In this document: piece by piece, positions 302-53,800 of the stretch
Position numbering within the stretch: the first letter of the stretch is position 1
Layout: each line of letters starts with the position of its first letter
Assembly: GCA_903813345.2 (NCBI GenBank)
Contig: CAIIXF020000002.1
Span: 348,001 to 412,000 of the forward strand
Reading direction: 5' to 3'
DNA: 64,000 nucleotides
Origin: Owenia fusiformis
Lineage: Eukaryota > Annelida > Polychaeta > Sabellida > Oweniidae
The notes under the pieces: model-generated
What the model was told of the DNA's origin: nothing
Databases searched by the model: none
What the model saw: only the letters and a program-made list of their open reading frames with translations
Program-made: the position numbers and the translations under genes

Positions 302-2444
<2,143 letters not shown>

Positions 2445-8700: not shown

Positions 8701-11700
8701 GCGAGACAAAAGTGACGGCCATTTTGAAAATAGGCGAGCTTTTGAACCAGGAGTCATAGGGGGTTTTCTGTATTGATGTTGAACAGAAATAACTTAAAAC
8801 AGGAATCCTATCGACAGAGGTTTTAAAACGTGCCACTATTGTTGACGGACAGACGGACGGATGGACGGACAGACGGACAAGTGAGTGATTGCAAAAGCTC
8901 ACCATGTGAGCTAAAGACATAAATAAATGCCCAAACACCCACAACATTAGAGAATTTGAAAGAAAACAGCTTCATTTAGAAGGACTCTAACTGAAGTTGA
9001 TGATGACAACTTCAGTTGGGTCATTCTAAGTGAAGCTGTTTTCTTTAAATTTCACCCATATGGCAGTTGATAGAGCATTTATCTGTGGTTGTTTACAATT
9101 GTAATTTTATAAGTTTGTATGGCGAAACTTTTGAAATCCAGATTCAACTTAGTTTAGCTGAAATCAGAGGTTTGTCGATAACAAAAGAATTTCGGCAACC
9201 ATCTTGAATGACGCTCACTCACTGCAGTTAGAGTCATCCAGCTGTGGAACAGTGACTATGAACAGGCGCCAAATTAACCCATATAATAATTAGGATTCAA
9301 TTTGCAGGAGGCAACTGATGGTGTTCCCATGTAACTGTAATAAGCTTGCTTTTTTTTATTGTGATTCAAATGCTGATATGAAATGTTAAAAAAACACATT
9401 TGGAACTGAACCATCACATTTTTGATTTGTGACCTGGATTGAATGAGCAATACTTCTTTTGGAGAAAAGTGTTTCCCAGCAGCTGATTCTGATTGTGTGG
9501 AATGTCCCAATCTTTTTAAGTTCATTAAATTACTTACCTATTAGCCTTTCCCTTCCATTTATGAGGAGGTGCTGAGTCGGGATTCAGTAAGATTGCTTTG
9601 TCACAATCTCTGATGGCTGCATTAGGCTTCTGGAGTCTAATAAACACGCTAAAAAAAGAATATTCAGGTTATCAATGTGGTAACCATCCTCCGATCACAG
9701 GGCTTCAAAATCCAGAATATATTCTTTCTTTTTACCCCCTGCGATAAGCAGTTAGCATTTCCCCAATTAAGAACTCGCAATCTGATTGGCTGTCGCAACA
9801 TTGCGACAGAAATCATGTATAAGTCATTGCGCATAATTAGATAATGTGATTCAGTTTAATCGGGCGCTTCCAAATTGGTTATAGCAGGGGGAAGAAGGAG
9901 GTACGGATTCTGGATACCTGCTTAGGAGGATGTGTGGTAACACACATGCAGAATACTTGCATACATCACTTTATTTAATAAACTGTAAATAACAGGATGT
10001 TAATGAAACGATTTATGTAGTGCCTGGTCACCGCCTTGACTCAAAGAACTATGCACACCTAGTAGATCAATGATGACCATATAGCACTTTTTCAAAGAGC
10101 CATAAAAATTGTATATTATCAAAAAAATTTACCTTGCACGTTTAGCATAAAGCAGACCTGAGTGGGGATTCAACTTGATTGCTTCAGTAAATAAGCCAAT
10201 AGCATCCTCAAGTCGCCCTGAAAATATGAAATAATAGGGATTTATTATAAGCCTCTTCAAATCTCCCTGGAGATATGCAATTGATTACATTTTTATTTCA
10301 AAAGTTTTCCTCCTTTTCAGAGCTTAAATGTATTATCTTATGTCACCATCTAAAAAGGTACATCATTAGTTTAATTTTGTCATCAGCATTTGATAAAGGC
10401 AAAGTCTGCAACAGATCTTTAATAAATACATGTACAACGCACATTGAGCCATAGGGAAAGGACCAACATTTTTTACTGAACCCAACAGCTTTTCTTGCAA
10501 CCAGGTAAGTTGAAATCGAAGTACGGAATGAGAGCACAATGTTGTATGTAATAACACATTAAGATAAGCTACAGAAAATATAATATTTATAGGATATCCT
10601 ATGATTTTGAGGAATATCATTTTTATCTACGAGGTGATATTGATATCTGCACGAGAGAGCGAAGCGAACGAGTGCATATATCAATATCACCGAGTAGATT
10701 AAAATGATATTCTGAAAAAAATCATAGGATGTTCTTATTATCCTACACTTACAAGGTGTGTACTGAATGTATGATATCATTGTAAAATTAATTTCATGCC
10801 TGATAGAGTCAATTTTGGCGGGAAATCAACAAGCGGAGTATATCGTCACAATATCCTCCGCATATTGGGTTTTCCGGAGTATATCGTCACGATATCCTCC
10901 GCCCGGAGTATATCGTAACGATATCCTCCGGATATTCATTTTGCCAATAAATATCAAATTTATTTTTTCATGTTATTATACATTTAGTACACTAAGTGTA
11001 GGATAATTTATATTATATTTTAACATGACTAACTTTAACATTATATTTTATATTATTTCAAATATTTTTTCATACACACCATCACTGACAGCTTCCATAG
11101 CTTCACCACGTTTAGCAGCAGATTGCTCCATCATCTCATCTGTAACCTCAAGGTTCTCATCGCCCATTTCCTGGTTAACATCAGTGTCTCCCTCTATAAC
11201 TCCCTCATTGTCTATGTCAATGTCACTTTCCTCACTCTCAGGTTCTGGGGTAGGCTCTCGTTTCTATAACAAACAAATATCAAATGTTTCTATATCATTG
11301 TCACTTTCCTCACTCTCAGGTTCTGGGGTAGGCTCTCGTTTCTATAACAAACAAATATCAAATGTTTCTATATCATTGTCACTTTCCTCACTCTCAGGTT
11401 CTGGGGTAGGCTCTCGTTTCTATAACAAACAAATATCACATGTAGCACAAAATACTTGAAAATAGTAATCAAGTAATTTTCAATGTCTAAGAGACAGTAA
11501 GCAAATATTTTTGTGAATATGTTATCTCTCAAGCTAAGAAGCAAGTAGGCACAGCACCTAGTACAGTACTTGAAAATATGAAAAATAGATTTACACCCCT
11601 TGAAAATAGATCGGCACTTGAAAATGAGAAGAATCTTAAAAAATACCAATTATTGACAACTGTCAATTATTTTTTATATGTTACAATAATTAAAATTACA

Positions 11701-14700
11701 TATTTTTACTTACTGGGGCAGGAGCTGGTTTTGGTTGCTCTTCTGTTGGAGGTGGAGCATCAAATGATGTGTTTGGGGCTGGCACCTCTGCACCAAGGCT
11801 AAAAATAACAAAAATAATGGAAGATAGAAAATATCAGCCATATTTGGCAAACCATCTAATAATGTGCTCTAACCTGTTTACGATTGAATTTTGAAAATAT
11901 TTCTTCTAACATTTTACAATCTAGTCTTTGCTATCATGGCTATCACTTTAACTAAAACAAGTCCAAAGTATGACAAAGGTGAATTTTGTAAAATCATCTT
12001 AACATTAACATGCATGAAAATAACTGGTATTGGTACATGTGTTAATCCTGGAGAAATAAGAGATTTAAATATCCCCCATCTTTATGAAAATAACTGGTAA
12101 ATGACATGAAAATGAGAAACAAAACATGGCAGTCATTTCTTCAAGATTTTTTCTTAACAAGGTACAGGTGCTATCCTAAAAATCCTGTACAACTTTTGGT
12201 CGAAATATCTCACAATTTCTCCCATTTGCAGGGTACAAACAGATTTTCAACAGGTTGGCATTTGTTTATAAGATTTAAAATAGGGTTCGACACCAGTTAA
12301 TTACGTTGCTCCAAGTTACCTACATGTACATTTACTGTATTAATTATTGTAACATCTCTGAATCATTGATTCATTCTCATAAAACAAACACTAACCGAGG
12401 TAATTAATTATTTATTATTATGATTCTAGCTTTAAACATATTGATAACACTTTAATTGGAATACATTGTGAGCATTGGCCCAATACGCAAACCCAGATAC
12501 TAGTAATCAATGCTTTTATTCAACTGATGAAAAATGCAAACATTTGATGTCAAGAGAAAAGGAGAGCTGGTTTATCAAACAGATGATGTACAGTTATTAA
12601 ACTGAGAGTTTTCTTTATGAAACCATCACTCTCACGAAACACTGGATAACATCAAGCATCTCAATGGATCATTGGCAATAAGATAAGAATATTATCAATG
12701 TTGGAATCTCATGCAATTACTACTCCCCCCTATACACACAAACTCCCCCATACATGTATACACACAAACTCTCCTTATACACACAAACTCCCCCAATACA
12801 CACACAAACTCTCCCCTACACAGCCAATATAATTCGGCACCGTTTCGGCATCAAGGAAATTCGGCGCTGTTCCGGCACCGTTTTGACACCGTTCCGGCAC
12901 CGAAACCTTTGGACACTTAAATTTGCTACCGGACTAGTCAGTCCATTTGGTGCCGTTTTTTGGTACATACAATGTGCATGATGTCATACCTTTCTAAGCA
13001 CACCTTATCCCCCTACCTCATATACAGTACACAACAAACTCTCCAGAATGTGAACATACAATGTGCATGATGTCATACCTTTCTAAGCACATCTTATCCC
13101 CCTACCTCATATACAGTACACAACAAACTCTCCAGAATGTGAACATACAATGTGCATGATGTCATACCTTTCTAAGCACATCTTATCCCCCTACCTCATA
13201 TACAGCACACAACAAACTCTCCAGAATGTGAACATACAATGTGCATGATGTCATACCTTTCTAAGCACACCTTATCCCCCTACCTCATATACAGTACACA
13301 ACAAACTCTCCAGAATGTGAACATACAATGTGCATGATGTCATACCTTTCTAAGCACACCTTATCCCCCTACCTCATATACAGTACACAACAAACTCTCC
13401 AGAATGTGAACATACAATGTGCATGATGTCATACCTTTCTAAGCACATCTTATCCCCCTACCTCATATACAGTACACAAAAACTCTCCAGAATGTGAACA
13501 TACAATGTGCATGATGTCATACCTTTCTAAGCACACCTTATCCCCCTACCTCATATACAGCACACAACAAACTCTCCAGAATGTGAACATACAATGTGCA
13601 TGATGTCATACCTTTCTAAGCACACCTTATCCCCCTACCTCATATACAGTACACAACAAACTCTCCAGAATGTTATTATACAATGTACATGATGTCATAC
13701 ATGTATGAGTATTTTGATTGGGAAATTTGAAATCTGTTTAAAATTCCCAAACTTCCGGATTTTGCACTTAAAGATGATGTCATGAAATTTGAATTCCTAC
13801 AATTAAGTGATAGATAATAAGATGAAGTCGCTGCTTGCAGACTTTATCGCGGAATTCAGAATTTTATGCAGACTTTGGCCAAAATTTTTCTCATGCAGAA
13901 AACTAGGATGTGTGTTTAAAGGGTTCTTCTTGCATAGCTCAGTGAATCCTTTCAACAACGTCAATTGGGTCTTAACCCCCCCCCCCCCCCTACACAAAAA
14001 CCCAGTGTATACCTCATACCTTTCTATCCATTCTTTGAAGAAGGCCAATTGTGGGAGATGTAAGATTGAAGGGTTCTTCTTGCATAGCTCAGTGAATCCT
14101 TTCAACAACGTCAATTGGGTCTTAACCCCCCCCCCCCCCCTACACAAAAACCCAGTGTATACCTCATACCTTTCTATCCATTCTTTGAAGAAGGCCAATT
14201 GTGGGAGATGTAAGATTGAAGGGTTCTTCTTGCATAGCTCAGTGAATCCTTTCAACAATGTCAACTGGGCCTTAACCCCCCCCCCCCTCCTACACAAAAA
14301 CTCAGTGTATACCTCATACCTTTCTATCCATTCTTTGGAGAAGGCCAACTGTGAGAGATGTAAGATTGAAGGGTTCTTCTTGCATAGCTCAGTGAATCCT
14401 TTCAACAATGTCAATTGGGCCTTAACCCCCCTCCTACACAAAAACCAAGTGTACACCTCATACCTTTCTATCCATTCTTTGAAGAAGGCCAACTGTGGGA
14501 GATGTAAGATTGAAGGGTTCTTCTTGCATTGCTCAGTGAATCCTTTCAACAACCTCAATTGGGTCTTAACCCCCCCCCCCCCCCCCTACACAAAAACCCA
14601 GTGTTCACATCATACATTTCTATCCATTCTTTGAAGAAGGCCAACTGTGGGAGTTGAATATTGAAGGGTTCTTCTTGCATAGCTCAGTGAATCCTTTCAA

Positions 14701-15019
14701 CAATGTCAACTGGGCCTTAATCCCTCCCCCTCCTACACAAAAACCCAGTGTATACCTCATACCTTTCTATCCATTCTTTGAAGAAGGCCAACTGTGGGAG
14801 ACGTAAGATTGAAGGGTTCTTCTTGCATAGCTCAGTGAATCCTTTCAACAATGTCAACTGGGCCTTAACCCCTCCCCTCCTACACAAAAACCCAGTGTAT
14901 ACCTCATACCTTTCTATCCATTCTTTGAAGAAGGCCAACTGTGGGAGATGTAAGATTGAAGGGTTCTTCTTGCATAGCTCAGTGAATCCTTTCAACAATG
15001 TCAACTGGGCCTGGTCCAT
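5717..15019 (-). CDS. ST13: HSC70-interacting protein Hip, exons 1-6 (C-terminus missing)
   Basis: Minus-strand exons: 15019-14910 (ATG), 11798-11714, 11263-11080, 10217-10133, 9648-9538 and 5819-5717. All have AG/GT borders and the phases agree throughout (2,0,1,2,2,0), giving 226 codons. Exon 1 encodes the Hip N-terminal dimerisation domain ([17 protein letters not shown]...FKEWIE); the split codon AG|C gives the Ser of the conserved E-S-x-G. Exon 3 encodes the acidic linker ([18 protein letters not shown]). Exons 4-6 encode the TPR block ([53 protein letters not shown]). Hip is a cytosolic co-chaperone that binds and stabilises ADP-Hsc70. The charged linker and DP domain that follow TPR in the family are not found before the window's left edge. 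Confidence 0.93.
5945..9290. mobile_element. 3.3-kb element: inverted ends around a tandem array
   Basis: It lies in ST13 intron 5. The ends are long imperfect inverted repeats: GTTAATTTGG...CTGTTC...GATGACTCTAACTGCAG...CAAGATGGTTGCC on the left recurs in reverse complement at about 9115-9285. Between them, about 6190-8850, are tandem 300-660-bp repeats of one sequence (GGCGAGCTTTTGAACC, GAGTCATAGG, ATGTTGAACA, CCTATCGACAGAGG, AAAATGGCTGAAAATAA). No protein-coding potential. It looks like a non-autonomous DNA transposon carrying an expanded satellite. Confidence 0.65.
8843..8882. repeat. GACGGACA-type microsatellite
   Basis: A run of GACGGACAGACGGACGG units closes the large tandem array. It is followed by GCAAAAGCTCACCATGTGAG, a short palindromic motif. 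Confidence 0.7.
10591..10734. mobile_element. Palindromic (foldback) MITE, family M2
   Basis: A near-perfect palindrome: GGATATCCTATGATTTT...GGTGATATTGATAT, then a loop GCGAAGCGAACGAG, then the reverse complement ending AATCATAGGATGTTC. A second copy lies at 25033-25176 in the opposite orientation, next to the Ngaro element. Confidence 0.8.
10737..11007. mobile_element. MITE family M1, copy 1
   Basis: The terminal inverted repeat is ATTATCCTACACTTA / AAGTGTAGGATAAT, and the element is 271 bp. The interior has three copies of a self-complementary phrase of the type GGAGTATATCGT(C/A)ACGATATCCTCC. It directly abuts M2. The same M1-M2 junction occurs around 17111-17382 / 25033-25176. Confidence 0.8.
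11264..11425 (-). repeat. Two extra copies of the ST13 exon 3 acceptor and 5' edge
   Basis: A 78-bp unit occurs three times. It contains, on the minus strand, TTTGTTATAG|AAACGAGAG plus the next ~40 nt of exon 3. Exon starts would be 11419, 11341 and 11263. Only the innermost acceptor (11263) leads into the full exon. Reading from either outer copy reaches an in-frame TAG formed by the next copied acceptor (TTA TAG). Confidence 0.85.
12710..12960. repeat. Low-complexity CA/CT-rich stretch and GGCACCG repeats
   Basis: 12715-12825 holds units like ATACACACAAACTCCCCC. 12830-12960 holds several TTCGGCACCG phrases. Overlapping short ORFs here are products of the repeat, not genes. Confidence 0.5.
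12964..13701. repeat. 89-bp minisatellite in ST13 intron 1, ~8 copies
   Basis: GTGCATGATGTCATACC recurs at 12974, 13063, 13152, 13241, 13330, 13419, 13507 and 13596, with a decayed ninth copy. Units are almost identical, so there are no variable spacers. On the minus strand each unit contains TAGAAAGGTATGA, identical to the exon 1 donor region of ST13. Confidence 0.9.
13915..14909 (-). repeat. Seven tandem copies of ST13 exon 1 with donor site
   Basis: The ~148-bp unit carries, on the minus strand, the exon 1 coding part from [18 protein letters not shown] to FKEWIE plus the donor AAAG|GTATGA and about 40 nt of G-rich intron. Copies occur near 13917, 14070, 14219, 14368, 14513, 14664 and 14812; the functional one is at 14910-15019. 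The copies lack the ATG, and all keep the coding frame open. This produces a 251-codon open stretch that crosses copy borders. Inclusion of one copy (95 nt) would shift the ST13 frame, so they are most likely inert intronic copies. Confidence 0.9.
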
Positions 15020-18881: not shown

Positions 18882-19386
18882 CATAGTTACGGCATGGTAC
18901 TATAACTAAGGAAGCAAGGCTTAGTAAGTAGGCCAAGTAAAAATATTGCATGATACTAATGACACATACATCCAAGTAATTATTTAGCTAGCTAGTATCC
19001 AAGGACTATACTCTCATCTAAATATTCACAAAATTGATGAGTTAGTCAAACATGTACATTTATGTACATGTACATGGATGATAGGTGATACGATATGTTC
19101 ATAAGAATACTTTTATCCAAAATGTATAATAAATATATAAGTTACATGAATTTAACAAGGATTGAAAGAATCGTCACACAAATTAATTAGGTAATGACAA
19201 TTACCCATAAGCAAACCATAGAATAGGGAGTGACCATTGTTTTCTGTTTTTACGATAAATGGGGGGGGGTCATACATTAAGTTCAATATGGCACTTAGGT
19301 AATTGAATTGCAAGTACGCATTTCATTTGCCCAAAGGAGTCGCTCGGAGTATTTAAGTGCTATATTGTACTATCACATTTCAGAAT

Positions 19387-25176: not shown

Positions 25177-25698
25177 ATAATTATGTGATACTATAAAACA
25201 AAGCGGATAAACTAAATTGAACTAGTCTAAAAATATCAAAGACAATGACTGTGACTGTCACAATCGAATCACGTCAAATAGCAGACGATGCCTTCCATTT
25301 CAGATTCAATATCAACGATTTCTCATAACTTTGTGTTAAGTTCGATGACTCATAATGAGCTTAAATGAATATAGAATCATCAGAAACCTATACTGACCTT
25401 CAACTTGATTTCCTTTGTGAGATATAGCTCAAATTATGAGCAAAATTTTCAAATTTCACATGTGAAGTTTCTAGATTTTGGGAGAAGTTCAATGTGCGAA
25501 CATTGCCGGTTTTTGGCGAAGTGGTATTTATTCAAATAATCCGGCTCGCTCTAAAAATTGCACATCTAATTATTGTTTATAATCAGGGGAGTATTCCTTG
25601 TGTAGTGAATCTATTCTAAATGAATGAAAATGATATATATTTGTAATTATTTGAATATTGGTTAATGTTGTAAGCAGCTTGGTCACATGATCTTCAAA
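25177..25698. other. Upstream region of XPNPEP3
   Basis: No gene seen. It should hold the XPNPEP3 promoter. No TATA box or CpG cluster can be pointed to with confidence. Confidence 0.3.
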
Positions 25699-28600
25699 AT
25701 GGCTGGCATTCTGAAAAAATGTTTTCAGTCTCACTTTAAAGGTAAAGTGCTTTTTTGCCATTATGCATCTTTAAAATGAACTTTTGTGGTTTCAGTGGTA
25801 TACCACTAGCTCTAAACTATATGTATTCGTTCATTATTTCATATGTGTAAGCATTTAGGTCGTTTCGCATTGTTTTCAAACTTTCCTAAATTTTTATTGT
25901 CTTTCAAAACTATACAACATGTACAGGACTACTCAAGGATTGGCTCCAGGGGGGGATTTCCCAAAGATGACCTTTCATATTGGCACGTTTGAAAAAAATT
26001 TATAAACGGGCCTCATTTGCCATTGGACTGAATCTCCCAATGTTCGCTGTAGTTTTATGAGTATTCTCTTCACATTTGGATCGAGTAACTTCAATAGTAT
26101 TAAATTACCATAGGTTTAAAATGATGATATTGAACTGAGCTACTCACCTCTTCTGGATTGATTCCCAGGGACGCCAATCGATATTCTGTTCCATATATGG
26201 GCATCACATAGTCATGTTATGAATACAAAATTCAATCAAGAATATTGGTTATTCTCCTTGCAGTCATAGAAATATACTGGCAGGATTTGAAACTACCGGA
26301 AAATACCTAACATTTTGGTAAAACATTCCTATACCTCCACATGTTATTTTCTGGTACATGTACACTATAAAGTATCAAGGCATGTGTTAATTTCCTTGCT
26401 TTTTTCAGGAAAGTATCATTACATTGTCTTCTTTTAGTACATGTATATCTGGTAAGAGGTCAAAGGGAACTCCAAGAAATTCTGATATTTCACACTTGCA
26501 TGTATTTTTCCATAGACTAAAATATAACACTACACATTGTTGCACTAATAGCGGAGAGTGAATGATCAATGAGTATTATCCATGAATGTCATAAGATGGC
26601 AAATTATCAACTTTTACATATTTATGTGTATTTTTATTTTCAATTTTTCAGATAAACTATGGATTATTCCTTACCTTAAAACTCAGGGTAACAAATTCTG
26701 TACTTGCTTGCCAGAGTATCAGAGATACTTTGGTCAACCCTCGGCACAAACTCATCCGCATATTATCAGCAAAGAAGAAGAAGTCACACCAGCAATTACG
26801 AAGGAAGAATATGCTCAACGAAGAAACACTCTCATGTCCAATTTATCAAAATATGGTATCAATAAGGATTCTAGCAATATTTTAATCATCCCATCTGCCG
26901 AGAAACAGTACATGACACATGATATACCATACCCATTTCGACAGAATACAGAGTTTTTGTACCTGTGTGGGTTTCAGGAACCAGATAGTGCTTTAGTTAT
27001 ATTCAACGAGGGTAAAACATCAAGTCATAAATCTGTTTTATTTGTGCCAAAACGTGATCCGAATTCAGAACTTTGGGATGGTCCTAGATCAGGAATAGAT
27101 GGCGCTATAGCTCTTACAGGAATCGACGAAGCATATAATATGAGTGAACTGGAATTATTTCTCAACAAATACCTCACACACAGCAATAAGTTCACTCTTT
27201 GGTATGATACACAAAGGACGCCAGTGCCAAATGTACATAATAGCACAATATCAGAGTTTATTAAGCAGAAGAAACATTGCTCAATAGAAAATCCAAAAAG
27301 ACTACTGCATATGCAAAGATTATTGAAATCTCCTGCTGAAATTGAATTGATGCGTCATACAACTGAAGTGGCATCGCAAGCTTTCATTGATGTTATGGCA
27401 TTCTCACATCCTGGGGTTTGTAATCGTTTTCTTAGATCTTGTTTTATATGATTTATGGGGTTTGTATTGTATCAAATGTTTCTTGTTTAACTTTTTTTAA
27501 TAAATGCAGTAAAACCTTTGGTACCTCTCAAAAGTTTTCAACTTGGGAGGTGTTTCAGAGGTACATTTAGAGGTACATTTAACATGAAGTAGGTTGGTCA
27601 TGGGACTCTGAAAACTTCCAGAGGTGTTCTACTTTACAGGTTTCTCTGTACTATAAATTTATTTTTTGAATTTTTGACATTGTAGTATTCTCCCATTAAT
27701 CATGTATTTTTTAGTCAATTATCATTCTCCTTTACTCTTTGATGTATAAGGGTCCCTCCTCAAACTTTGTAATAATGTCTTAGTTTTCAGAAACCAATTC
27801 ATAAATTCGTAATAAAATGAAAATGAAGTCATTATTACCTGATGTTATTGCATCCCAATCGGTATGAATTTGATGCACGTGATTAAATTTGCATCTGTTG
27901 ATCTGCCTCTTTGATTTGCCTCTGTTGATTTGCCTCAGCTGATTAAATTTGCCTCTGTTGATTTGCCTCTTCGATTTGCCTCAGCTGATTAAATTTGCCT
28001 GTATTGATTTGCCTCTTTGAATTGCCTCTATTGATTTGCCTCAGGCGATTAAATTTGCCTCTGTTGACTGCCTCTTTGATTTGCCTCTGTTGATTTGGCT
28101 CAGCTAATTAAATTTGGTTCTGTTGATTTGCCTCACCTAATAGATACATTCCTGAGATGAAATAGCATATAGTCAGGTACTTAAATCATGACGTTCCCCC
28201 TTCCCTCCCACTCCATTCATAACATGCTCTAAAATCCAATCAATGATATTCCCTTTGCTTTTAAATGACAATGCTATCCGTCTTAAAGCTCACAACTTAC
28301 TCAATATACCATTTATAGTTGTCATTTTTTTTATTATATTTAGGTTAATGAGGCCCACCTTTATGCCAAGATGGAAGTGGAGTGCAGAATGAGAGGAGCG
28401 GATTTCCTTGCCTATCCCCCTGTAGTTGCAGGTACTGTAGTCTACATATGTGTATGCAGCTTACATATTACCTATAGTATTGCATGCATTGATATAGCTT
28501 TATGTGTATAGTTTGCCAATTTTGTCACTTCGGTAGCTGGAAGATAGGTTTAGCTTTTTGTTGTACATTGCAAAATTCAAGAAACTGCTTTAAATGTTCA

Positions 28601-31600
28601 TGAAAATATCAATTTCTACTCACTTCATGAGATGTTTTGCACGGAAATCAGATAATCGTCTCTTGAATGTAAAACATTGTAAAATATAATCATAATAGTG
28701 AATTTTCTCTTTAGGTTAAATTTTGTTTCACCCAGTTTTAAATCCTCAGGCTCTGCCGCTGACCATTTATATACCATTTTAGGAGGAAATCGGGCCAACA
28801 CCATCCATTACATAGCTAACAATCAGCTAATAGATGGCACAGAGATGGTATTGATGGATGCAGGTTGTGAGCTACATGGGTACACCAGTGACATCACTAG
28901 GACGTGGCCTGTTTCAGGTTAGATTGTGTAGTGGGCATGTGGATGGCTATAAGAAAGAGCACTTGCATGTGTACAGCAGCGTATGAACTGTAAAAGGGGA
29001 TGTATGTTGTATGCATGTCTATCTTTCATCCTCTTACCTCTTATATTTTGGACACTTACGGGGTTTTCACTAGAATTTTCCAACAAAATGGGCATGAAGT
29101 AAAAGCAATGGGAAAAATTGTGGAAGTCATAATTTAAACATGAAAAAAGTTCCAATTCCATTTTTAGTTGAAAGTAATAAATTAGACAAAACCATAAAAG
29201 TAACCAGAGAAAATCTGGATTTTAATAATCTGAGTATTTACCCCCATAAAACGTCCCCTCTATTTAAATTGTATATGTCTAAATGATTTGCAAGCTTTAA
29301 TACATTCTAGGTACATTTACTGATGCACAGAGAGAAGTTTACGAGGCTGTACTAGAAGTGCAGTTAGCATGTATTAAGCTATGTAAAGTGGGATGCAAGC
29401 TGGATGATATGTTTAGAGCCATGGTCCATATGATTGGCAAACAGCTAATAAGGTTGGGTATCGTTCCTGAATCCACAAGTGACTCTGAGATCTACAAGGT
29501 ATTATATTTATCATCAATTTGTACCATTTCAAAGGGTAGCAAATGATAGAAGTAAATTGGAGAAATCTAGCGACATATTGCAGAGGCATATCTCGGGTAA
29601 AAATTGGGCAGACTTGAAAGTTGAAGCAAATTAGGTTAAAAATGGGGTACATTGTATATTTTTACCTTTAAACCTCATTTCCACAGTTTTAATTGAAAAA
29701 TTGTCCATTAATTATCACATTTGACACAGTATCTAAAATGTTCTTACTTAAGGTGTATTAATTATTTAGTATTTTAATCGCATAGGAAACCTATTTTAAC
29801 CACTAAAGTTTTAGTGCAATCTAAAAGATTCTTAAGACTGAGCTTTAGATATATTATGTTTTATCCTATGCCAAGTACAGTTTTAGGGAGATAAGTTGGT
29901 AAGATATATCCCGTATCCTGATTTTGAGGTTTCCATATCAAGAACCTCCATATCTCTCGCCATATCTCCCGCTTCGGTGCATATCTTCCCGCTTCCGGTG
30001 CATATCTTCCCGCTTCCGGTAATGCAATAAAATGACTTGATTTGTTTATTTTTACACCTTGTACTATTAAAATGGCCATATGCCCCTGAAAACTCTACTT
30101 GGTATAGGATAAAGCAGTTATGTACGGTCGGTTTGGATATGGGGTTCATCCCTCGTGAGATATGCACATCTACCTTCGGTCCCTACGGTCCCTCAGGTAG
30201 ATATGCATATCTCCCTCTGGATAAACCCCATATCCAAAACCTCCCAGTACATAACCCTTATTTATTGTAAAGACGCACCTGTGAAAGTGTGCCGCTGATA
30301 CAAAAGCGTAGTTCTGAATAAATAAATAAATAGGCAGTTGAAAAAATTATTTTTATTTCCATTTATTATCACAATTTTATCAGTTTTTAGTAACACTGAC
30401 AAAAGGCAAAAAAAATAATTTCCAACATGCTCTATTCTCAACAACCACTTTAAAATATCATTGAAAGCCATTTTCATAATATTGACAGCTGATTAACTGA
30501 GCATTGTGGATTATAGTTTTCCTGTAATAATGAACACATGCAATGGAAGTCTTACTTTGACTGTAAGACAATTTGATGAATATTTAAGTATTTTTGCTAA
30601 TATTATGGCTTGCAACTTTTGTGAATAGTCAGAATAAAGTATTTATGTTATTTTTATTTCAGTTTTTAATTTTTGGAATTCAAATATGTTTATCCTTAGA
30701 CTCACTGTACTATATCTAGTATACCATTTTGTTCCAGTTGGCAAGGGATATTTGTCCCCACCACGTGAGTCATTACTTAGGAATGGATGTCCACGACACA
30801 CCTTCAGTATCAAGGAGCCTGGCTATACAACCAGGGACTATAATCACTGTTGAACCAGGTAAGGGGACTATTACCACTGTTCAACCAGGTAAAGGGGACT
30901 GTTATCTCTTTGATCCAGGTAAGAGGACCATTATCAGTGTTCAACCAGGTAAAGGGGACTGTTATATCTTTGATCCATGTAAGGGGACTATTATCACTGT
31001 TGAACTAGGTAAGGGGACTGTTATCTCTTTGATCCATGTAAGGGGACCATTATCACTGTTGAACCAGGTAAGGGGACTGTTATCTCTTTGATCCAGGTAA
31101 GAGGACCATTATCAGTGTTCAACCAGGTAAAGGGGACTGTTATATCTTTGATCCATGTAAGGGGACTATTATCACTGTTGAACCAGGTAAGGGGACTGTT
31201 ATCTCTTTGATCCAGGTAAGAGGACCATTATCAGTGTTCAACCAGGTAAAGGGGACTGTTATATCTTTGATCCATGTTAGATGACCATTATCAGTGTTCA
31301 TCCAGGTAAAGGGGACTGTTATATCTTTGATCCAGGTAAGAGGACCATTATCAGTGTTCATCCAGGTAAAGGGGACTGTTATATCTTTGATCCAGGTAAG
31401 AGGACCATTATCAGTGTTCATCCAGGTAAAGGGGAACGTTATCTCTTTGATCCAGGTAAGAGGACCATTATCAGTGTTCAACCAGGTAAAGGGGACTGTT
31501 AAATCTTTGATCCAGGTAAGAGGACCATTATCTCTGTTGAACCAGGTAAGGGGACTGTTATATCTTTGAACCAGGTAAGGGGACTTTTATCTCTTTGATC

Positions 31601-34600
31601 CATGTAAGGGGACCATTATCACTGTTGAACCAGGTAAGGGGACTGTTATCTCTTTGATCCAGGTAAGAGGACCATTATCAGTGTTCAACCAGGTAAAGGG
31701 GACTGTTATATCTTTGATCCAGGTAAGAGGACCATTATCTCTGTTGAACCAGGTAAGGGGACTGTTATATCTTTGATCCATGTAAGGAGACTATTATCAC
31801 TGTTCAACCAGGTAAAGGGGACTGTTATCTCTTTGATCCAGGTAAGAGGACCATTCTCAGTGTTCAACCAGGTAAAGGGGACTGTTATATCTTTGATCCA
31901 TGTAAGGGGACCATTATCACTGTTGAACCAGGTAAGGGGACTGTTATCTCTTTGATCCATGTAAGGGGACCATTATCACTGTTGAACCAGGTAAGGGGAC
32001 TGTTATCTCTTTGATCCATGTAAGGGGACCATTATCACTGTTGAACCAGGTAAGGGGACTGTTATCTCTTTGATCCAGGTAAGAGGACCATTATCAGTGT
32101 TCAACCAGGTAAAGGGGACTTTTATCTCTTTGATCCAGGTAAGAGGACCATTATCAGTGTTCAACCAGGTAAAGGGGACTGTTATCTCTTTGATCCAGGT
32201 AAGGGGACTGTTATCTCTTTGATCCAGGTAAGAGGACCATTATCAGTGTTCAACCAGGTAAAGGGGACTGTTATATCTTTGATCCATGTAAGGGGACTAT
32301 TATCACTGTTGAACTAGGTAAGGGGACTGTTATCTCTTTGATCCATGTAAGGGGACCATTATCACTGTTGAACCAGGTAAGGGGACTGTTATCTCTTTGA
32401 TCCAGGTAAGAGGACCATTATCAGTGTTCAACCAGGTAAAGGGGACTGTTATATCTTTGATCCAGGTAAGAGGACCATTATCACTGTTGAACCAGGTAAA
32501 GGGGACTGTTATCTCTTTGATCCAGGTAAGAGGACCATTATCAGTGTTCAACCAGGTAAAGGGGACTGTTATATCTTTGATCCATGTAAGGGGACTATTA
32601 TCACTGTTGAACTAGGTAAGGGGACTGTTATCTCTTTGATCCATGTAAGGGGACCATTATCACTGTTGAACCAGGTAAGGGGACTGTTATCTCTTTGATC
32701 CAGGTAAGAGGACCATTATCAGTGTTCAACCAGGTAAAGGGGACTGTTATATCTTTGATCCATGTTAGATGACCATTATCAGTGTTCATCCAGGTAAAGG
32801 GGACTGTTATATCTTTGATCCAGGTAAGAGGACCATTATCAGTGTTCATCCAGGTAAGGGGACTGTTATATCTTTGATCCATGTTAGATGACCATTATCA
32901 GTGTTCATCCAGGTAAAGGGGACTGTTATATCTTTGATCCAGGTAAGAGGACCATTATCAGTGTTCAACCAGGTAAGGGGACTGTTATATCTTTGATCCA
33001 TGTCAGGGGACCATTATCACTGTTGAACCAGGTAAGGGGACTGTTATATCTTTGATCCAGGTAAGAGGACCATTATCACTGTTGAACCAGGTAAAGGGGA
33101 CTGTTATATCTTTGATCCAGGTAAGAGGACCATTATCAGTGTTCAACCAGGTAAGGGGACTGTTATATCTTTGATCCATGTCAGGGGACCATTATCACTG
33201 TTGAACCAGGTAAGGGGACTGTTATATCTTTGATCCAGGTAAGAGGACCATTATCACTGTTGAACCAGGTAAAGGGGACTGTTATATCTTTGATCCAGGT
33301 AAGAGGACCATTATCAGTGTTCAACCAGGTAAAGGGGACTGTTAAATCTTTGATCCAGGTAAGAGGACCATTATCAGTGTTCAACCAGGTAAGGGGACTG
33401 TTATATCTTTGATCCATGTAAGGGGACTATTATCACTGTTGAACCAGGTAAGGGGACTGTTATCTCTTTGATCCAGGTAAGAGGACCATTATCAGTGTTC
33501 AACCAGGTAAAGGGGACTGTTAAATCTTTGATCCAGGTAAGAGGACCATTATCAGTGTTCAACCAGGTAAGGGGACTGTTATATCTTTGATCCATGTTAG
33601 ATGACCATTATCAGTGTTCATCCAGGTAAGGGGACTGTTATATCTTTGATCCATGTTAGATGACCATTATCAGTGTTCATCCAGGTAAGGGGACTGTTAT
33701 ATCTTTGATCCATGTTAGAGGACCATTATCAGTGTTCATCCAGGTAAAGGGGACTGTTATATCTTTGATCCAGGTAAGAGGACCATTATCAGTGTTCATC
33801 CAGGTAAAGGGGACTGTTATATCTTTGATCCAGGTAAGAGGACCATTATCAGTGTTCAACCAGGTAAAGGGGACTGTTAAATCTTTGATCCAGGTAAGAG
33901 GACCATTATCAGTGTTCAACCAGGTAAGGGGACTGTTATATCTTTGATCCATGTCAGGGGACCATTATCACTGTTGAACCAGGTAAGGGGACTGTTATCT
34001 CTTTGATCCAGGTAAGAGGACCATTATCTCTGTTGAACCAGATAAGGGGACTGTTATATCTTTGATCCAGGTAAGAGGACCATTCTCAGTGTTCAACCAG
34101 GTAAAGGGGACTGTTATATCTTTGATCCATGTAAGGGGACTATTATCTCTGTTGAACCAGGTAAGGGGACTGTTATCTCTTTGATCCAGGTAAGAGGACC
34201 ATTCTCAGTGTTCAACCAGGTAAGGGGACTGTTATATCTTTGATCCATGTAAGGGGACTATTATCACTGTTGAACCAGGTAAGGGGACTGTTATCTCTTT
34301 GATCCAGGTAAGAGGACCATTATCAGTGTTCAACCAGGTAAAGGGGACTGTTATATCTTTGATCCATGTTAGAGGACCATTATCAGTGTTCATCCAGGTA
34401 AAGGGGACTGTTATATCTTTGATCCATGTAAGAGGACCATTCTCAGTGTTCAACCAGGTAAAGGGGACTGTTATATCTTTGAACCAGGTAAGGGGACTGT
34501 TATCTCTTTGAACCAGGTAAGAGGACCATTATCTCTGTTGAACCAGGTAAGGGGACTGTTATATCTTTGATCCATGTAAGGGGACCATTATCTCTGTTGA

Positions 34601-35852
34601 ACCAGGTAAGGGGACTGTTATATCTTTGATCCATGTAAGGGGACCATTATCTCTGTTGAACCAGGTAAGGGGACTGTTATATCTTTGATCCAAAAGAGGA
34701 CCATTATCTCTGTTGAACCAGGTAAGGGGACTGTTATCTCTTTGATCCAGGTAAGAGGACCATTATCTCTGTTGAACCAGGTAAAGGGGACTGTTATATC
34801 TTTGATCCATGTAAGGGGACCATTATCTCTGTTGAACCAGGTAAAGGGGACTGTTATATCTTTGATCCATGTAAGGGGACCATTATCTCTGTTGAACCAG
34901 GTAAGGGGACTGTTATCTCTTTGATCCAGGTAAGAGGACCATTATCAGTGTTCAACCAGGTAAAGGGGACTGTTATATCTTTGATCCATGTAAGGGGACT
35001 ATTATCACTGTTGAACTAGGTAAGGGGACTGTTATCTCTTTGATCCATGTAAGGGGACCATTATCACTGTTGAACCAGGTAAGGGGACTGTTATCTCTTT
35101 GATCCAGGTAAGAGGACCATTATCAGTGTTCAACCAGGTAAAGGGGACTGTTATCTCTTTGATCCAGGTAAGAGGACCATTATCAGTGTTCAACCAGGTA
35201 AAGGGGACTGTTAAATCTTTGATCCATGTAAGGGGACCATTATCTCTGTTGAACCAGGTAAGGGGACTGTTATATCTTTGATCCAGGTAAGAGGACCATT
35301 ATCAGTGTTCAACCAGGTAAAGGGGACTGTTATATCTTTGATCCATGTAAGGGGACTATTATCACTGTTGAACCAGGTAAGGGGACTGTTATCTCTTTGA
35401 TCCATGTAAGAGGACCATTATCACTGTTGAACCAGGTAAGGGGACTGTTATCTCTTTGATCCATGTAAGAGGACCATTATCACTGTTGATCCAGTTAAGG
35501 GGACTATTATCACTATTAAACCAGGCGCAACTAGGTGATTGTTTTTTTGGTCAAATGATAAGCATATTGCATTTCTAATTGCAAATCAGACCGTATGAGG
35601 CAAGTCAATTGAATTCTCAAGTTTTACTTATACTTAGGCTTATTGTATTCCTTTTCAGGCATGTACTTCCCTAAGGACAACACAAAAATACCTGAACGAT
35701 TCCGTGGAATTGGCATAAGAATAGAAGATGATGTTCTCATAACAGAAGAAGGTCCTGACGTCTTGACTCACAATTGTCCTAAAACTATAGGAGCCATAGA
35801 ACATGTGATGAAATATCAGAAACGTGTGACGTGGAGTAAGGAGGGATATTAG
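25699..35852 (+). CDS. XPNPEP3: Xaa-Pro aminopeptidase 3, mitochondrial (complete)
   Basis: Seven exons: 25699-25741, 26652-27415, 28344-28431, 28783-28917, 29311-29498, 30738-30858 and 35659-35852. All are AG/GT and phase-consistent, totalling 1533 nt = 510 aa, close to human (about 507). Exon 1 gives [14 protein letters not shown], a basic start fitting a mitochondrial presequence. The N-domain holds [32 protein letters not shown] and [14 protein letters not shown]. The M24 metallopeptidase ligands are present: D324 and D335 ([19 protein letters not shown]), H418 ([13 protein letters not shown]), E445 (TVEPG) and E469 (IRIEDDV). It removes N-terminal residues before proline, including from mitochondrial proteins. 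Exon 6 ends inside the catalytic TVEPG motif, and intron 6 is filled by repeats made from that exon edge. Confidence 0.96.
27875..28140. repeat. Tandem GATTTGCCTC-type repeat in XPNPEP3 intron 2
   Basis: About ten irregular units of the form CTGTTGATTTGCCTC or CAGCTGATTAAATTTGCCTC. There is no similarity to the adjacent exon edges. Confidence 0.7.
29880..30255. mobile_element. Foldback MITE in XPNPEP3 intron 5
   Basis: The core at about 30115-30250 is a palindrome: GGTTTGGATATGGGGTT... with loop CTTCGGTCCCTACGGTCC, then AACCCCATATCCAAAACC. The end phrase GTTATGTACGGTCGGTTTGG recurs inverted at about 56924-56943, so both belong to one family. A 27-bp tandem TATCTTCCCGCTTCCGGT lies on the left side (29963-30022). 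Confidence 0.6.
30859..35525 (+). repeat. ~4.7-kb array of exon 6 3' edges with 5' splice sites
   Basis: Array of ~29-30-bp half-units in a ~59-bp alternating higher-order pattern. One half reads like the last 25 nt of exon 6 plus GTAAG (ATCACTGTTGAACCAGGTAAG). The other is a diverged version ending TTTGATCCAGGTAAG. It begins directly at the exon 6 donor (30858/30859) and ends near 35525, about 130 bp before the exon 7 acceptor. Dividing length by period gives roughly 150 donors of the form CAG|GTAAG/GTAAA. Short open frames on both strands here are repeat artefacts. Confidence 0.95.
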
Positions 35853-35867
35853 CAGTAATGGGGGAAA

Positions 35868-36280
35868 ACATGGAGCTGGTATATATGAAACATGTAGCAG
35901 GAATATGTGACATTGAGCAGGAATATGTGACATTGAGCAGGAAAATGTCACATGGAGCGGGAATATGTGACATGGAGCAGGAATATGTGACATTGAGCAG
36001 GAATATGTGACATGTAGCTAGCAGGAATATGTGACATGTAGCAGAAATATGGGACATTGAGCAGGAATATGTGACATTAAGCAGGAATATGTGACATGGA
36101 GTAGGAATATGTGACATTGAGCAGGAATATGTGACATGTAGCTAGCAGGAATATGTGACATGTAGCAGGAATATGTAACATGGAGCAGGAATATGTGACA
36201 TGTAGCAGAAATATGTGACATGGAGCAGGAATATGTGACATGGAGCTTGTGTATATGTGACATTTACCAGGAATATGCGA
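35868..36280 (+). repeat. ~21-bp minisatellite in the XPNPEP3 3' UTR
   Basis: About 20 units of the form GAATATGTGACATGGAGCAG start 16 bp after the stop codon and run almost to the candidate poly(A) signal. They are probably transcribed with the 3' UTR. Confidence 0.85.
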
Positions 36281-36318
36281 CCTTTGAGCAGTCCTGTGTG
36301 GTAGAGGCTGAAATATGG

Positions 36319-39145: not shown

Positions 39146-42069
39146 ATGGGTAGTTCTAGTAACACATACCAACTGACACGTTTAATTCAGGATGCTGTCA
39201 TGAAACTTTGCACACGAAACATTTTATTCTCAAGATCTCTTGAGGTGGATGGCATCATTTGTATATCAGAAGGAGATGATAAACCAGAAGTTGTCGTGAA
39301 AATGCATCGCACAATCGTCAAACCGCCTGACACTCCTGATGCATTCTGTCAAATTCAAGAAGCAACAGCTACTCAGTATAGTCACAATGATGTCACGGCG
39401 CCATTAACAACACAAGGGAATGAATTTGCCTTTCAAAATAAAGAGACTGAAAACTTAGTATCTAATAGAAAAAGGAAACAGAAATGTGAAGGACTTCATA
39501 AGGTTAAAAGTAAGTCATATATGACCTGGAAAATTCTGCTCAGAACATTAAAATATTTTGTGCCCATTTTAATTAGGTGGTTACTTAATTAATTTGATCA
39601 ACTTAAAAATTAAGGCTTGCTATTGGTTAATCGACGCTTTGCTATATCCATGTGCGTTACAAGAGAGTGTATATGTATTCTTCAAAACATGTGAATTATT
39701 TGATATGTTATTATTTAGAAATATTTATTTATACATGTACCTTTTTTACATTTTATAGATGAACACATGAATTACCCCTCCTGTGCCTATAATAAAAGAA
39801 AAAATGACAATATTGAGCTAACTAGTCCAGAAAAATGTCTAAGAATAAAAACTGAAAATCCTGTAGTCGAGACTGATGAAAGTATTGATGGAGGAACAGA
39901 TGTGACAAGCAGCAACTCTAATTGGACACCAAGTAATGCGTCACATGATCAACTCGGATATGGGACAACCAATCACAGCGCCTCTAACATTAACATACGT
40001 AAGTACATGTATATACTTTCCTCTGAAATTGTGTGTTTACCTGTGTTCTTCATTCTATATCATGCAAGCAATACATCTCTCTCCAGAAAGTAATTTATAT
40101 CAATGGGTCATCTCAATCACCAATACTGAATAAAGGTATCCTCTATAAAGGAGTTAATAAAATTGAGTATGAACTATCACAAATTCAATCTCAAAAATGT
40201 TAATATCCGCACTGTGGACACATGATACCCTCACTTCTTGTTTTTATATAACTCAGTCTGTGTATGATTTGTTAATAGGTTGTCCATGTTAATGATGTAA
40301 TGGGCTATGTGTGTTTTTAAAGTATTTAAATATATTTTTTACTTTTTATATATAGATAAACCAGTGAATTATCCCACTTGTGTCTACAATAAAATAAAAA
40401 ATGACAATGTTGAGCTTACTAGTCAAGAAAAATGTCAAAGCATAAAAACTGAGCACCCTGTAGGGGAGACTGATAGCATTGGTGGAGAAACAGATGTAAT
40501 GAACAGCAGCTCTGATTGGACACCCAGTAATGTGTCACATGATCAAGTCAGATATGGGACAACTAATCACAGCACTGCTAACATAAACATAAGTAAGTGT
40601 ACATTTACATTTAGTCAGAAATAACTAATTATTAATTCCTTCAGGGGTTTTAAAAATTTCCACTCTGGTTGACCAAAGTTAAGCTGAAAGCAATGGATCG
40701 CATAAGTTTTCTCTATGGGAAAATAACATCAGAAATACTGTTTATCACTATTAACTAAAATTAATTTACTTATTCCTTTTAAGGGGTTAACTGTGAGTCA
40801 AAACGCAACACATTGATGCAACAACAATTCAAAAAGCATGGATGGAAGGGGTTGAAAATCTGGACAACATTTCAGAAAAAAACATGTGGTTTGCATCTTC
40901 CCTGTCTCAAAGTCAAAATTATTTTATCATCTCTATGAGTGCTTTTCCTAGAGGTTGCCTTACATTATCCACCTGTTAAATCCTCAGGAAATAACCAACA
41001 TCCAACATACGATCGTCAGAAATCTGTTGCGATACTTTCCCTCCTCCTTTCTGATGTTTATGAATTCTAAAAGTAAATCTGACAGTTTTGTGCTTTGTCA
41101 TATAATTTTGGCATTGTTCCAATTGATGACATTATGAATTATTAAGATCTGAGACAATGAGACAACATTTTTCTTCATTTTTTAGCCCATATTTATTGAG
41201 CTATTGTTTCAACCAGGTTTATCTGCATTTTTCATCTGCAAGGAAATAAAATCTGAATGGGAGCCAATCTGCTAGATTCCCTATTCACCTAAATGTTAAT
41301 TTTATCATAAACTCAACAAATTAATTAGATTGACTTATCCCGATTTGGTAAGGGAAGATCAAGGAATTATTCAAAGAATATAGTTGTAAAATTGTGATGT
41401 TTGATTTGTATGCATTTTAGATAAACTAGGCTAGTTAAACAGTTCCACATTTAATATATTGCAGCTCCTGATAAAGACCTTGTATGTAATATCTGCTACA
41501 AGACATTCGCAAATGCTGGGAATTTACGACGTCACATAAGAAGTGCACATTTGAACCAGTCCTTTCAATGCCTGAAGTGCAATAAGAGTTTCAATTACTC
41601 TAGCAATTTGAAACGTCACAGTAAAACTTGTCAAGGATTAAATTCAACCACAAGGAGTAAGGAACTTACAAACAAACAAGGTAGAAATACACAGTATGAT
41701 GATAATACAAGGCAATATGATGATAACTACACTGAGAATGATGATAATACCAGACAGTATGATGATAACTATACACAAAATGATGACAATATCAGACAGT
41801 ATGATGAAAACTACATACAGAATGATGATAACACCAAACATGATGATAACTCTACACAGAATGATGATAATACCAGACAGTATGATGATAACTACATACA
41901 GAATGATGATAACACCAGACAACATGATGATAACACCAGACAACGTGATGATAACTCTACACAGAATGATGATAATACCAGACAGTATGATGAAAATGAT
42001 ACGCAAAATGATGGTAACAAGACTTTGTATAATGATGATATCACTTATTATGATAATAATACAACTTAG
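39146..42069 (+). CDS. Zinc-finger protein with tandemly duplicated exon and Asp/Asn-rich tail
   Basis: Exons 39010-39509 (ATG 39146), 39759-39998, 40356-40592 and 41465-42069 (stop). All joins are phase 1 and give 481 aa. The N-terminus (GSSSNTYQLTRLIQDAVMK, VDGIICISEGDD) is not recognised. Exons 2 and 3 are tandem duplicates (NYPSCAYNKRKNDN / NYPTCVYNKIKNDN) ending SDWTPSN..SHDQ..YGTTNHS. Exon 4 has two fingers: CNICYKTF...HIRSAH (C2H2) and CLKCNKSF...HSKTC, whose last ligand is Cys (C2HC). A repetitive tail of NDDNTRQYDDN units follows. Nuclear DNA or RNA binding is likely from the fingers; the partner is unknown. Gene identity is not assigned. Confidence 0.75.
40625..40960. mobile_element. 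Repeat copy in intron 3 of the zinc-finger gene
   Basis: It shares ordered phrases with 60065-60440 and 60600-60720: GTCAAAACGCAACA, TCTGGACAACATT(TC)AGAAAAA, GCATCTTCCCTGTCT and AAATTATTTTAT. This is a dispersed element related to the inverted-repeat element at about 60.1-60.7 kb. Confidence 0.5.
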
Positions 42070-50800: not shown

Positions 50801-53800
50801 TGAAGGCTCGGAATTGTCACATGCAATAACTTATTGTCGTATTCGTTATTTTATCTTCTCGATAGTAGCATTTAGTCGCACATTTGATGCCAGGTCACCT
50901 TGTCGCGTACCTCTTGGGGAACCCCACATTTATGTGTGTACTCATGGAAGTAAATTCCCCGGTGTAGCCGAGAGCCACAAACTTTTCAACGGGTTCGAAA
51001 TGACCAATTTCTCTCATATATACTCTAAATATTTTATTATTTAGCACCTACAAAGTATTGCTAATAACCATATGTAATTTCAATAAGGAAACTTATCTGG
51101 CTACATATAAATTCAATATCAACACTAGCTGTTCTCTCAACACGTCCTGGCTTACCTTGTGGTGACAAACCCTGGATTTTCGCTATTTATAGTTTATCAA
51201 CACCTGGACGCATGCGCATTTTATACTTTATCGGGCACTTTAAGTTAGAATCATATTCACAGCTAGTATCACACTGTAACTATTTACTGTCAAATTAATA
51301 ATAGTTCCAAAGTCTCAAGGTTTTTAATTGTACTCTTTTACACCACAGTGAAGATAAACAAACCGCATAACTATCAATGTTTTAAGAAAAATATATAATA
51401 GAAATCATAGATGTGACAATTTTCAAATTTTATTCTTAACTTTTCTTCATTTTGTTGCCCTTACACAAACAGTGTAAATAAGCACATTTTCTCTCAAATT
51501 CTGAATAACCATGTTATCATTAGAGGCTTGCTTGATTTAGTGATATTTAATTTCATGGTTGGGCCGTCATGGCTACAGATTAAAATCTTGTCATGATTTT
51601 GCCCAGTTATTTTAAACCTAACTTGCATAATTATGTATAGCGTCTTGTTGCACTTATGATGTGCAAAATATTATCAGCAACATAGGCTTTCTTGTATTAT
51701 CATCTTTATGCAACGAGAAAGTGCCTAACAGCAATTTGAGCGACTGAATTATAAATGTACATTGCGATGATGAGCATGTAAAGAAAAAAAACTTAATATT
51801 TGTCACACTCAATTCGTAGATTAAAATTATAATTTTAAATCGTCACATAAAACATATGAAAATATGTCAAGTCTCTACATGTTGATGCTTATTATCTTCA
51901 TGAAATATGAGAAGAAAATGTCAATAGTGTTACTTGTTTGCTAATATATATATTTATGTGGTATATGAAAATATCTTCATAATAATCTTTCTAACTAGCA
52001 GAATTATTATATCCCAACTTTATGCTCAAACCCTTTTACAAATATCATAATCTTTTTACTCTCATCTTTTGGATGTTTGAAACAACAATTTATGTTGTTC
52101 AAATGGTTAATGATACATATTATTGTATCAGCCCAAAATCAGTCAACTTATCCTCTCCGTGTTAGAATCCAATAGCGTCCTATAGAGTGATGTTCAAGAT
52201 GTATGAACATTCGGTTACATGCGCTACTTAAGTAAGAGTGTATATTTACGTTGTACGTAACTGATGTAAAAATATATTAACTATATGTTTAATATTTTAG
52301 GGACATTTAATGAGGTTTTGTATAAATATACTCATTGTGGTAAACATGTGTGATACATGTATATTGACCTTGAAGTAATAAAAGGAATTGCGACACAAGA
52401 TTCAATTACCTGACCATAGTCTTGCAAATTATCTTCAACTTCACTATAGATGAACTTATATGATAGAACCCATGCGTAAGTAATAAAAGGAATTGCGACA
52501 CAAGATTCAATTACCTGACCATAGTCTTGCAAATTATCTTCAACTTCACCATAGATGAACTTATATGATAGAACCCATGCGCCAAAGGCTTGGGATCCTT
52601 GAGTTACCACCTCGGATACAAACATAACTTGGCCAAGGTCTGCTTGTATCCACTGGTTCGTGTTCATATCTGCAAAAGCAACAGCCCAGCTCCTACTGGA
52701 AATATAACATATACTTTTCAATTGATTATGTACATATTTGCTAAACTGTTCTGACTCTATCAATATTTATTGATACACATCATACCTGCCAACCTAAGAC
52801 TAACAATTTGCGGTAGTTTTTTTTTAATTGCGGTATTTTTGCGGTAGATTTTACATGAAAAAACGGTAATTTTTTACAGTAGTTTGTCATTTTTACGGAA
52901 AAACAAAAATTTTACGGTAGATTCCCGAAAAAATACGGTAGATTGGCAGGTATGCACATAGTATTCCAGGTCTGTATTTGTTAATGACGGTGCATGTTAA
53001 TTTGAATATTAAGTTCAACGATAAACAATTATGTATCATTTTTAATTTTTGAATTATTGATATTGATGTCAATTATATATTAGCACTGTAATTCCGGAAT
53101 TGTCACTTAATACACACAATAAACGTGATTCGAACATGACTGTATTCACGCCTTCTATAAACTGTGAACAAAGTCAATGCTTCAGCTGAGTTATATTCGA
53201 GATCAAATCCCCGGTTCTGTACGGAGTGTTTCGTTCAGTGTACTGAATTGTCAATTCGGGCTGTTCCGTTCTTTTCGCATCCCCCTCTCGTCTGCAATAA
53301 AAATCAATATGGAGGCCGGACAGAATTGTCCTGATCCTAAGTTTGCCGTGGGAGATTTCGTTACTTGTAATTTGAAACACCCTGATATTAGTTTAACAAT
53401 TGAGAACAAACTTGTTTATATTACAAGCATCACCAATAGAACAGGAACAAATAGGTACTCCGTATTTATGATTGATTCACAATTGAGTATGGATTTCGCC
53501 ACTTGGAATTTGGAATTAAGCCAGGAATTTAGTGATTTTTTCGACAATGCTGATGTTTTTGAGAAAACAGTTATCGATAATGATACATCTTGTCCAGCGG
53601 AAGTGAAAGTGAAACGCCATAGCGAAGTAGAATAAGCAGAAATCAAAAACTTACAAGACTGTAGAGAAGAGCCCTCCACAAAAGCAGCCACAAGATGGAG
53701 TGTGAATATTTTCAAAGGTAGGCTTACGCCGGCTAAGTTCGATTGCAAAATAAATTAAATAATCCCAAGTTATCAAGATCACTTAGTTTGTCTTTTTTTC

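Follow-up and report, generated by a model that had tools for sequence, protein, structure and literature searches.

How does the spliceosome choose a 5' splice site when one intron offers it 156 in a row? Experiments on the choice between donors of equal quality mostly rely on minigenes that carry two or three sites. A natural case is found in a 64,000-nt window of DNA from the marine worm Owenia fusiformis (assembly GCA_903813345.2, contig CAIIXF020000002.1, positions 348,001-412,000, forward strand; coordinates below are those of the window), in which intron 6 of the gene XPNPEP3 opens with a long tandem array of donor-bearing units. Thirty-eight of the 156 sites, the real donor counted, share an identical donor nine-mer and differ mainly in position, and the pre-mRNA thus constitutes a natural test of donor choice. 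The array is probably a minisatellite that was seeded at the exon 6/intron 6 junction, that carries its donors as passengers with the exon-adjoining site mainly in use, and that is tolerated rather than selected.

Identity of the gene and anatomy of the array

Joining the six plus-strand exons listed in Table 1 gave a product of 495 residues with the Pfam domains PF05195 (AMP_N) and PF00557 (Peptidase_M24), and its top match in the PDB was 5x49, Probable Xaa-Pro aminopeptidase 3 (E 2.7e-151). This pair of domains, together with XPNPEP3 as the closest similarity, places the product in the XPNPEP3 (M24B aminopeptidase P) family. The top database protein, the deposited Owenia fusiformis protein P0001, is 100% identical across the entire query, and a tblastn search of the window with P0001 recovered the same exon regions. 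P0001 begins 13 residues before the joined product, and 12 of these are readable upstream at 25666-25776; a first exon therefore lies there, and both the gene name and the exon number given in a preliminary description of this DNA are correct.

Tandem Repeats Finder (TRF) reported a repeat at 30834-35525 with a period of 59, 78.9 copies and 91% matches. Homology to the repeat begins 25 nt inside exon 6, and one unit consists of approximately 25 nt of the exon's end and 5 nt of the intron's start (GTAAG). When the units were read by their donor motif, 156 sites were obtained, the first being the real donor at 30858 and the last lying at 35494; the array therefore starts at the real exon 6 donor and is built of copies of the exon's last ~25 nt plus a donor, as had been described. 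Neighbouring sites are 30 bp apart in 113 of 155 cases and 29 bp apart in 41; the single spacing of 57 bp belongs to a unit at 34665-34721 from which a further donor site was removed by internal deletion. The units are of two types, A (n=77) and B (n=79), and these alternate at 152 of the 155 neighbour steps, which bears out the proposed doubling into a higher-order repeat of ~59 bp. Among the 156 units, 34 distinct sequences were found, and the longest repeated block spans 9 units. Intron 6 measures 4800 bp, of which the array takes up 4667 bp (97%).

Every half-unit had been said to contain CCAG|GTAAG or GTAAA. CAG|GTAA is indeed present at 114 of the 156 sites (77 with GTAAG and 37 with GTAAA), but 36 sites read CCAT|GT, 4 read CTAG|GT and 2 are without GT, the dinucleotide being kept at the other 154. 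By sequence class, there are 77 sites of CCAGGTAAG, 37 of CCAGGTAAA, 26 of CCATGTAAG, 7 of CCATGTTAG, 4 of CTAGGTAAG and 3 of CCATGTCAG, in addition to the 2 that lack GT. Within 30859-35525, CAG|GTAA occurs 113 times, a count that reflects one tandem event and not 113 independent events; 200 dinucleotide shuffles averaged 0.66 occurrences and yielded at most 4.

Table 1. Coordinates of the XPNPEP3 exons, the parts of the intron 6 array and the other junction-spanning arrays of the window.
Feature	Position	Strand	Basis
XPNPEP3 exons 2-5, with exon 2 taken from its first whole codon	26654..29498 (26654-27415, 28344-28431, 28783-28917, 29311-29498)	+	exon joining, match to P0001
XPNPEP3 exon 6, 121 nt, ending ...TVEPG in phase 1	30738..30858	+	joined protein 100% identical to P0001; PF00557, PF05195
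Founder copy of the unit, within the exon, GGGACTATAATCACTGTTGAACCAG	30834..30858	+	TRF start 30834; unit list
Tandem array, ~30-bp units; 156 donor-register sites counting the real donor	30859..35525	+	TRF, donor-motif reading
Units ending at donors 2-6; use would insert 10, 20, 30, 40 or 50 in-frame codons	30859..31008	+	
Units ending at donors 7-156; use would give a premature stop, nonsense-mediated decay predicted for 146	31009..35494	+	
Non-repeat remainder of intron 6, 133 bp, with its own acceptor TTTTCAG	35526..35658	+	
XPNPEP3 exon 7, last coding exon	35659..35852	+	exon joining, P0001
Second junction array: end of ST13 (Hsc70-interacting protein) exon 1 (15019-14910) plus ~45 bp of intron; 7 donor copies, period ~150 bp	13919..15012	-	TRF
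Third junction array: 78-bp unit joining the end of an intron to the beginning of ST13 exon 3, with 3 copies of the acceptor	11211..11443	-	TRF
Fourth junction array: 105-bp unit, present twice (99% matches), across the presumed donor CAG|GTAATTG of an exon with an F5/8C domain	52373..52581	-	TRF

A separate tandem array, with 20 copies of a 20-bp unit, lies at 35868-36281 and starts ~15 nt past the stop codon of XPNPEP3, presumably within the 3' untranslated region.

Donor strength and the products of donor choice

Duplex energies were computed against the 5' end of U1. Donor 1 pairs at -11.5 kcal/mol, whereas the donors of exons 2-5 lie between -5.7 and -8.0 kcal/mol. A pairing of -8 kcal/mol or stronger is reached by 118 of the 156 array sites, and one of -10 kcal/mol or stronger by 77, donor 1 among them; of 6421 GT sites beyond the array, counted on both strands, 1.4% pair at -8 kcal/mol or stronger. 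The earlier phrase "about 150 equivalent donors" was thus an overstatement: 118 sites are good donors, only 77 are near-optimal, and a set of ~150 equal donors was rejected. A gradient of donor strength along the array was also rejected (Spearman 0.04, P 0.64). Given the 38 identical nine-mers, pairing with U1 does not by itself set donor 1 apart.

To derive the product of each choice, all 156 donors were joined in silico to exon 7, and the 50-nt rule was applied for nonsense-mediated decay (NMD). With donors 1-6 the reading frame runs on to the normal stop, and the exon measures 121-271 nt. Later donors had been described as in frame at first, and the first peptides given were right, but the frame does not stay open beyond donor 6. 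Use of donors 7-10 leads to an early stop that nevertheless escapes the 50-nt rule, while use of donors 11-156 puts the stop over 50 nt ahead of the final junction, for which NMD is predicted. The deposited P0001 joins donor 1 directly to exon 7 (...TVEPGMYFP...). No isoform with an insert was seen: the P0001 cluster has 1 member, and no other Owenia-named protein is present among the 120 listed of 6779.

Origin and persistence of the array

The structure is best explained as the outcome of a small tandem duplication over the boundary between exon 6 and intron 6, covering ~25 nt of exon and GTAAG, that then grew, presumably through slippage or unequal exchange, to ~156 units and the A/B higher-order repeat within an intron of otherwise only ~130 bp. 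The composition of the unit, exon end plus GTAAG with the first copy in the exon, supports this origin, as does the commonness of tandem arrays in the window (41 TRF rows in 64 kb), and the small number of distinct units and the repeated blocks of up to 9 units are as in array turnover. On this account the donors would be passengers of the duplicated unit, and the spliceosome would mainly take the donor next to the single-copy exon: under exon definition, the splice site at the other end of the 121-nt exon 6 would pair with whichever partner is closest. Any leaky use of donors 2-6 would insert short in-frame segments, and transcripts from more distant donors would probably be degraded by NMD. 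We propose that the array is tolerated for two reasons, the choice of the nearest partner and the removal by decay of most transcripts mis-spliced at later sites, and we infer that it is near-neutral.

Signs of selection were sought in the array itself. When the conservation of unit columns was ranked by circular shift, the donor window came 8 of 31 and GT 6 of 31, so clear selection on the donor motif was rejected. The exonic -1 G is replaced by T in 36 of the 79 B units. The frame is open through donor 6 because two consecutive B units are 30 bp long, a length shared by 37 of the 79 B units; such an opening is expected in ~22% of cases from the unit mix, and it was rejected as a sign of selection. 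These results on conservation, the -1 position and the frame, together with that on the strength gradient, do not support donor upkeep as a function of the array.

It should be noted that several points weigh against a neutral passenger array read mainly from its first site. The nine-mer gives donor 1 no advantage of its own. Entropy in the donor columns averages slightly less than in the other columns (0.33 versus 0.40), which may leave room for weak upkeep or selection. The window contains four junction arrays (see below), a number that may exceed chance, and simple neutrality leaves such an excess unexplained. Furthermore, the deposited use of donor 1 comes from a gene model, and gene models favour open frames. 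Over the 75 nt upstream, 90 of the 156 donors have a sequence identical to that of another donor; junction reads from later donors are thus ambiguous, and annotation from short reads would under-report those donors. The published Owenia annotation, from which P0001 may derive, combined ab initio prediction with aligned proteins and with splice junctions from RNA-seq, according to an excerpt of its description (PMC9977687).

The leading rival to a passenger array is dual-specific, or recursive, splicing, in which each CCAG|GTAAG would serve as both acceptor and donor, the intron would be removed stepwise, and some transcripts would gain 10-residue cassettes, as in UBC. Excerpts of the UBC study state that UBC is spliced via tandem AGGT dual-specific sites and that human repeat-embedded introns spliced in this way are enriched 8.4-fold (PMC10809524). 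In the array, B units read CTGTTATCTCTTTGATCCAG|GTAAG, and many units are acceptor-like (CTCTTTGATCCAG|G) and hence candidate dual-specific sites, next to donors of good quality at 118 of 156 sites. On a simple frequency-based score of the acceptor motif, the 120 array AG sites range from -2.51 to 4.97 and the gene's 6 real acceptors from -1.43 to 4.8; 19 of the 120 score 3.89, within the real range, and of 3130 AGs elsewhere on the plus strand, 6.2% score at least as high as the median of the 120 (1.63). However, intron 6 has a strong acceptor of its own (score 4.8), P0001 is without an insert, and the simplicity of the score tempers the comparison, so that stepwise splicing appears unlikely. 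Less probable still is a regulated set of alternative donors, with donors 1-6 giving functional XPNPEP3 isoforms that carry up to 50 extra residues beside TVEPG. All six are in frame, five of them pair with U1 at -8 kcal/mol or stronger, and in IFI6 two downstream repeat units act as donors to give three mRNAs, as summarised in an excerpt of PMC4526556; but any insert would fall directly after the conserved TVEPG segment, the database entries described above contain no insert isoform, and the open frame is what the unit mix would often enough provide.

The preliminary description had suggested that the array binds U1 and thereby suppresses premature polyadenylation, and titration of U1 would be a related role. 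The 118 sites that pair well with U1 speak for such a role, and intron 5, just upstream, contains 5 AATAAA hexamers. AATAAA is absent from the array itself (0 copies), ATTAAA occurs there once, and both are missing from the 133-bp tail of the intron; by this count of hexamers, the layout of U1 telescripting, in which U1 sites guard intronic polyadenylation signals, was not found in the array or the tail. Minus the array, only ~133 bp of intron would be left to protect, and the donor columns are not specially conserved. The suggestion thus went unsupported, and we regard a U1-binding function as very improbable. An assembly artefact, in which a truly short array was inflated during assembly, is just as hard to credit: 34 distinct unit types in non-periodic order are unlike a looped assembly, and the published Owenia genome, from a single male, drew on PacBio reads with an N50 of 25.75-30.75 kb that could span 4.7 kb, according to an excerpt of PMC9977687, although the window may stem from a different assembly.

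Junction-spanning arrays elsewhere in the window

Three further arrays in the window span an exon-intron junction, two in ST13 and one in an exon encoding an F5/8C domain (Table 1); exon borders were set by eye except in XPNPEP3 and ST13. At ST13 exon 1, one of the 7 donor copies reads AAAT|GTATGA, and the deposited Owenia ST13 protein, P0121, fits donor copy 1. At ST13 exon 3, P0121 fits acceptor copy 3 of 3, which adjoins the exon body; the upstream copies would read into a stop, and only the last gives an open frame. The F5/8C exon was recognised by Pfam PF00754 (E 4.1e-09), with a match that ends at residue 60, beside the presumed junction, and no deposited model for this exon was seen. 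In all three arrays that have a deposited model, the site that fits it is the one adjoining the exon.

Junction-spanning units thus occur in 4 of 26 arrays, against an expectation of 0.56-1.79 (P 0.003-0.11), an estimate made post hoc with 41 TRF rows collapsed by hand to 26 arrays and with 25-80 junctions assumed; the excess is only suggestive. Our conclusion is that the XPNPEP3, ST13 and F5/8C structures arose when short stretches spanning a junction were duplicated and the arrays then grew. A bolder extension, which we hold to be doubtful, is that exon-intron junctions of Owenia are preferred birthplaces of arrays and that XPNPEP3 is the extreme case, with over 100 dual-specific sites used for stepwise splicing within the array and donor choice set by adjacency to the exon and not by splice-site sequence.

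To the XPNPEP3 array, the neighbouring ST13 adds a version with 7 donors and a mirrored version with 3 acceptors. If one exon-adjoining site dominates in RNA, then position and exon definition decide, and not U1 strength; if a ladder of donor use appears, it would give a direct measure of the error rate. The locus also shows that expansion starting at an intron's own splice site can lengthen a short intron tens-fold and leave the gene unbroken.

Surrounding genes and elements

ST13 exons 1-3 (11078-15019, minus strand) and XPNPEP3 exons 2-7 (26654-35852, plus strand) lie head to head. The two genes also carry consecutive locus tags in Xenopus tropicalis (XENTR_v10012375 for ST13 and XENTR_v10012376 for XPNPEP3), which suggests that they are neighbours there too and that the microsynteny is old. 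Between them in the window lies a retroelement at 19357-23370 (+) with a reverse transcriptase and a phage-integrase-type recombinase open reading frame (ORF) (Pfam RVT_1, Phage_integrase), which we take to be DIRS-like. A dynamin-type GTPase ORF, presumably EHD-like, was found at 1539-2444 (+), on the strand opposite ST13 (Pfam Dynamin_N). The C-terminal exons of ST13 were not found down to coordinate 1, either as short motifs or as tblastn pieces of at least 85% identity, so this ORF may sit inside an ST13 intron. A zinc-finger ORF at 41455-42069 (+) has a C-terminal part made of a 21-bp, 7-residue coding tandem repeat. A scan of the window with Rfam at the gathering score gave 0 matches.

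Comparison with known systems

The minisatellite of human IFI6 has units of 12 nt in about 26 copies. Located at exon 2 of IFI6 (6-16), it provides multiple splice donors (Turri et al. 1995, Nucleic Acids Research (NAR) 23:1854, as cited in PMC2572611 and PMC4526556). The XPNPEP3 array would work most like this one, since both are minisatellites at an exon end with donor-bearing units: in XPNPEP3, the repeat is continuous with the exon end, from 30834 through the donor at 30858, and its units carry the donor. The two differ in that the early repeats of IFI6 are documented in use, whereas the XPNPEP3 array is known here from sequence and from a deposited protein that uses donor 1.

Other systems share single features with the array. 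In UBC, AG|GT stands at the repeat boundaries and tandem repeat and splice site evolve together, but the UBC repeats are coding monomers whose sites were shown to be used both ways, as excerpted from Duan et al. 2024 (PMC10809524), whereas those of XPNPEP3 are intronic and mostly out of frame. The intron gain in a potato RdRp gene, as an excerpt of PMC4974935 relates it, likewise involved a duplicated segment across an intron-exon boundary that brought splice signals along; there, one duplication created a new intron, whereas the existing intron of XPNPEP3 would have grown in many rounds from its donor end. The 38-bp variable number tandem repeat (VNTR) in intron 6 of hTERT is also an intronic minisatellite of a protein gene and alters splicing, but the excerpt of PMC3948165 places it more than 1 kb from exon junctions and has it act via RNA:RNA pairing, not as donors. 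On that distance, hTERT INS1/VNTR6-1 was rejected as a junction array. The intron repeats of an earthworm metallothionein gene were rejected as a parallel, being intronic minisatellites for which junction spanning is not stated in the excerpt of PMC12783039. Among the matches listed in the open-access literature, none reported the XPNPEP3 array or a donor array this large. Compared with IFI6, XPNPEP3 has ~30-nt units and 156 sites over 4.7 kb, its units form an A/B higher-order repeat, and junction arrays recur close by. By this analogy, the XPNPEP3 array may be regarded as a variant of the IFI6-type donor minisatellite, one that would be new in its size, its higher-order structure and its recurrence.

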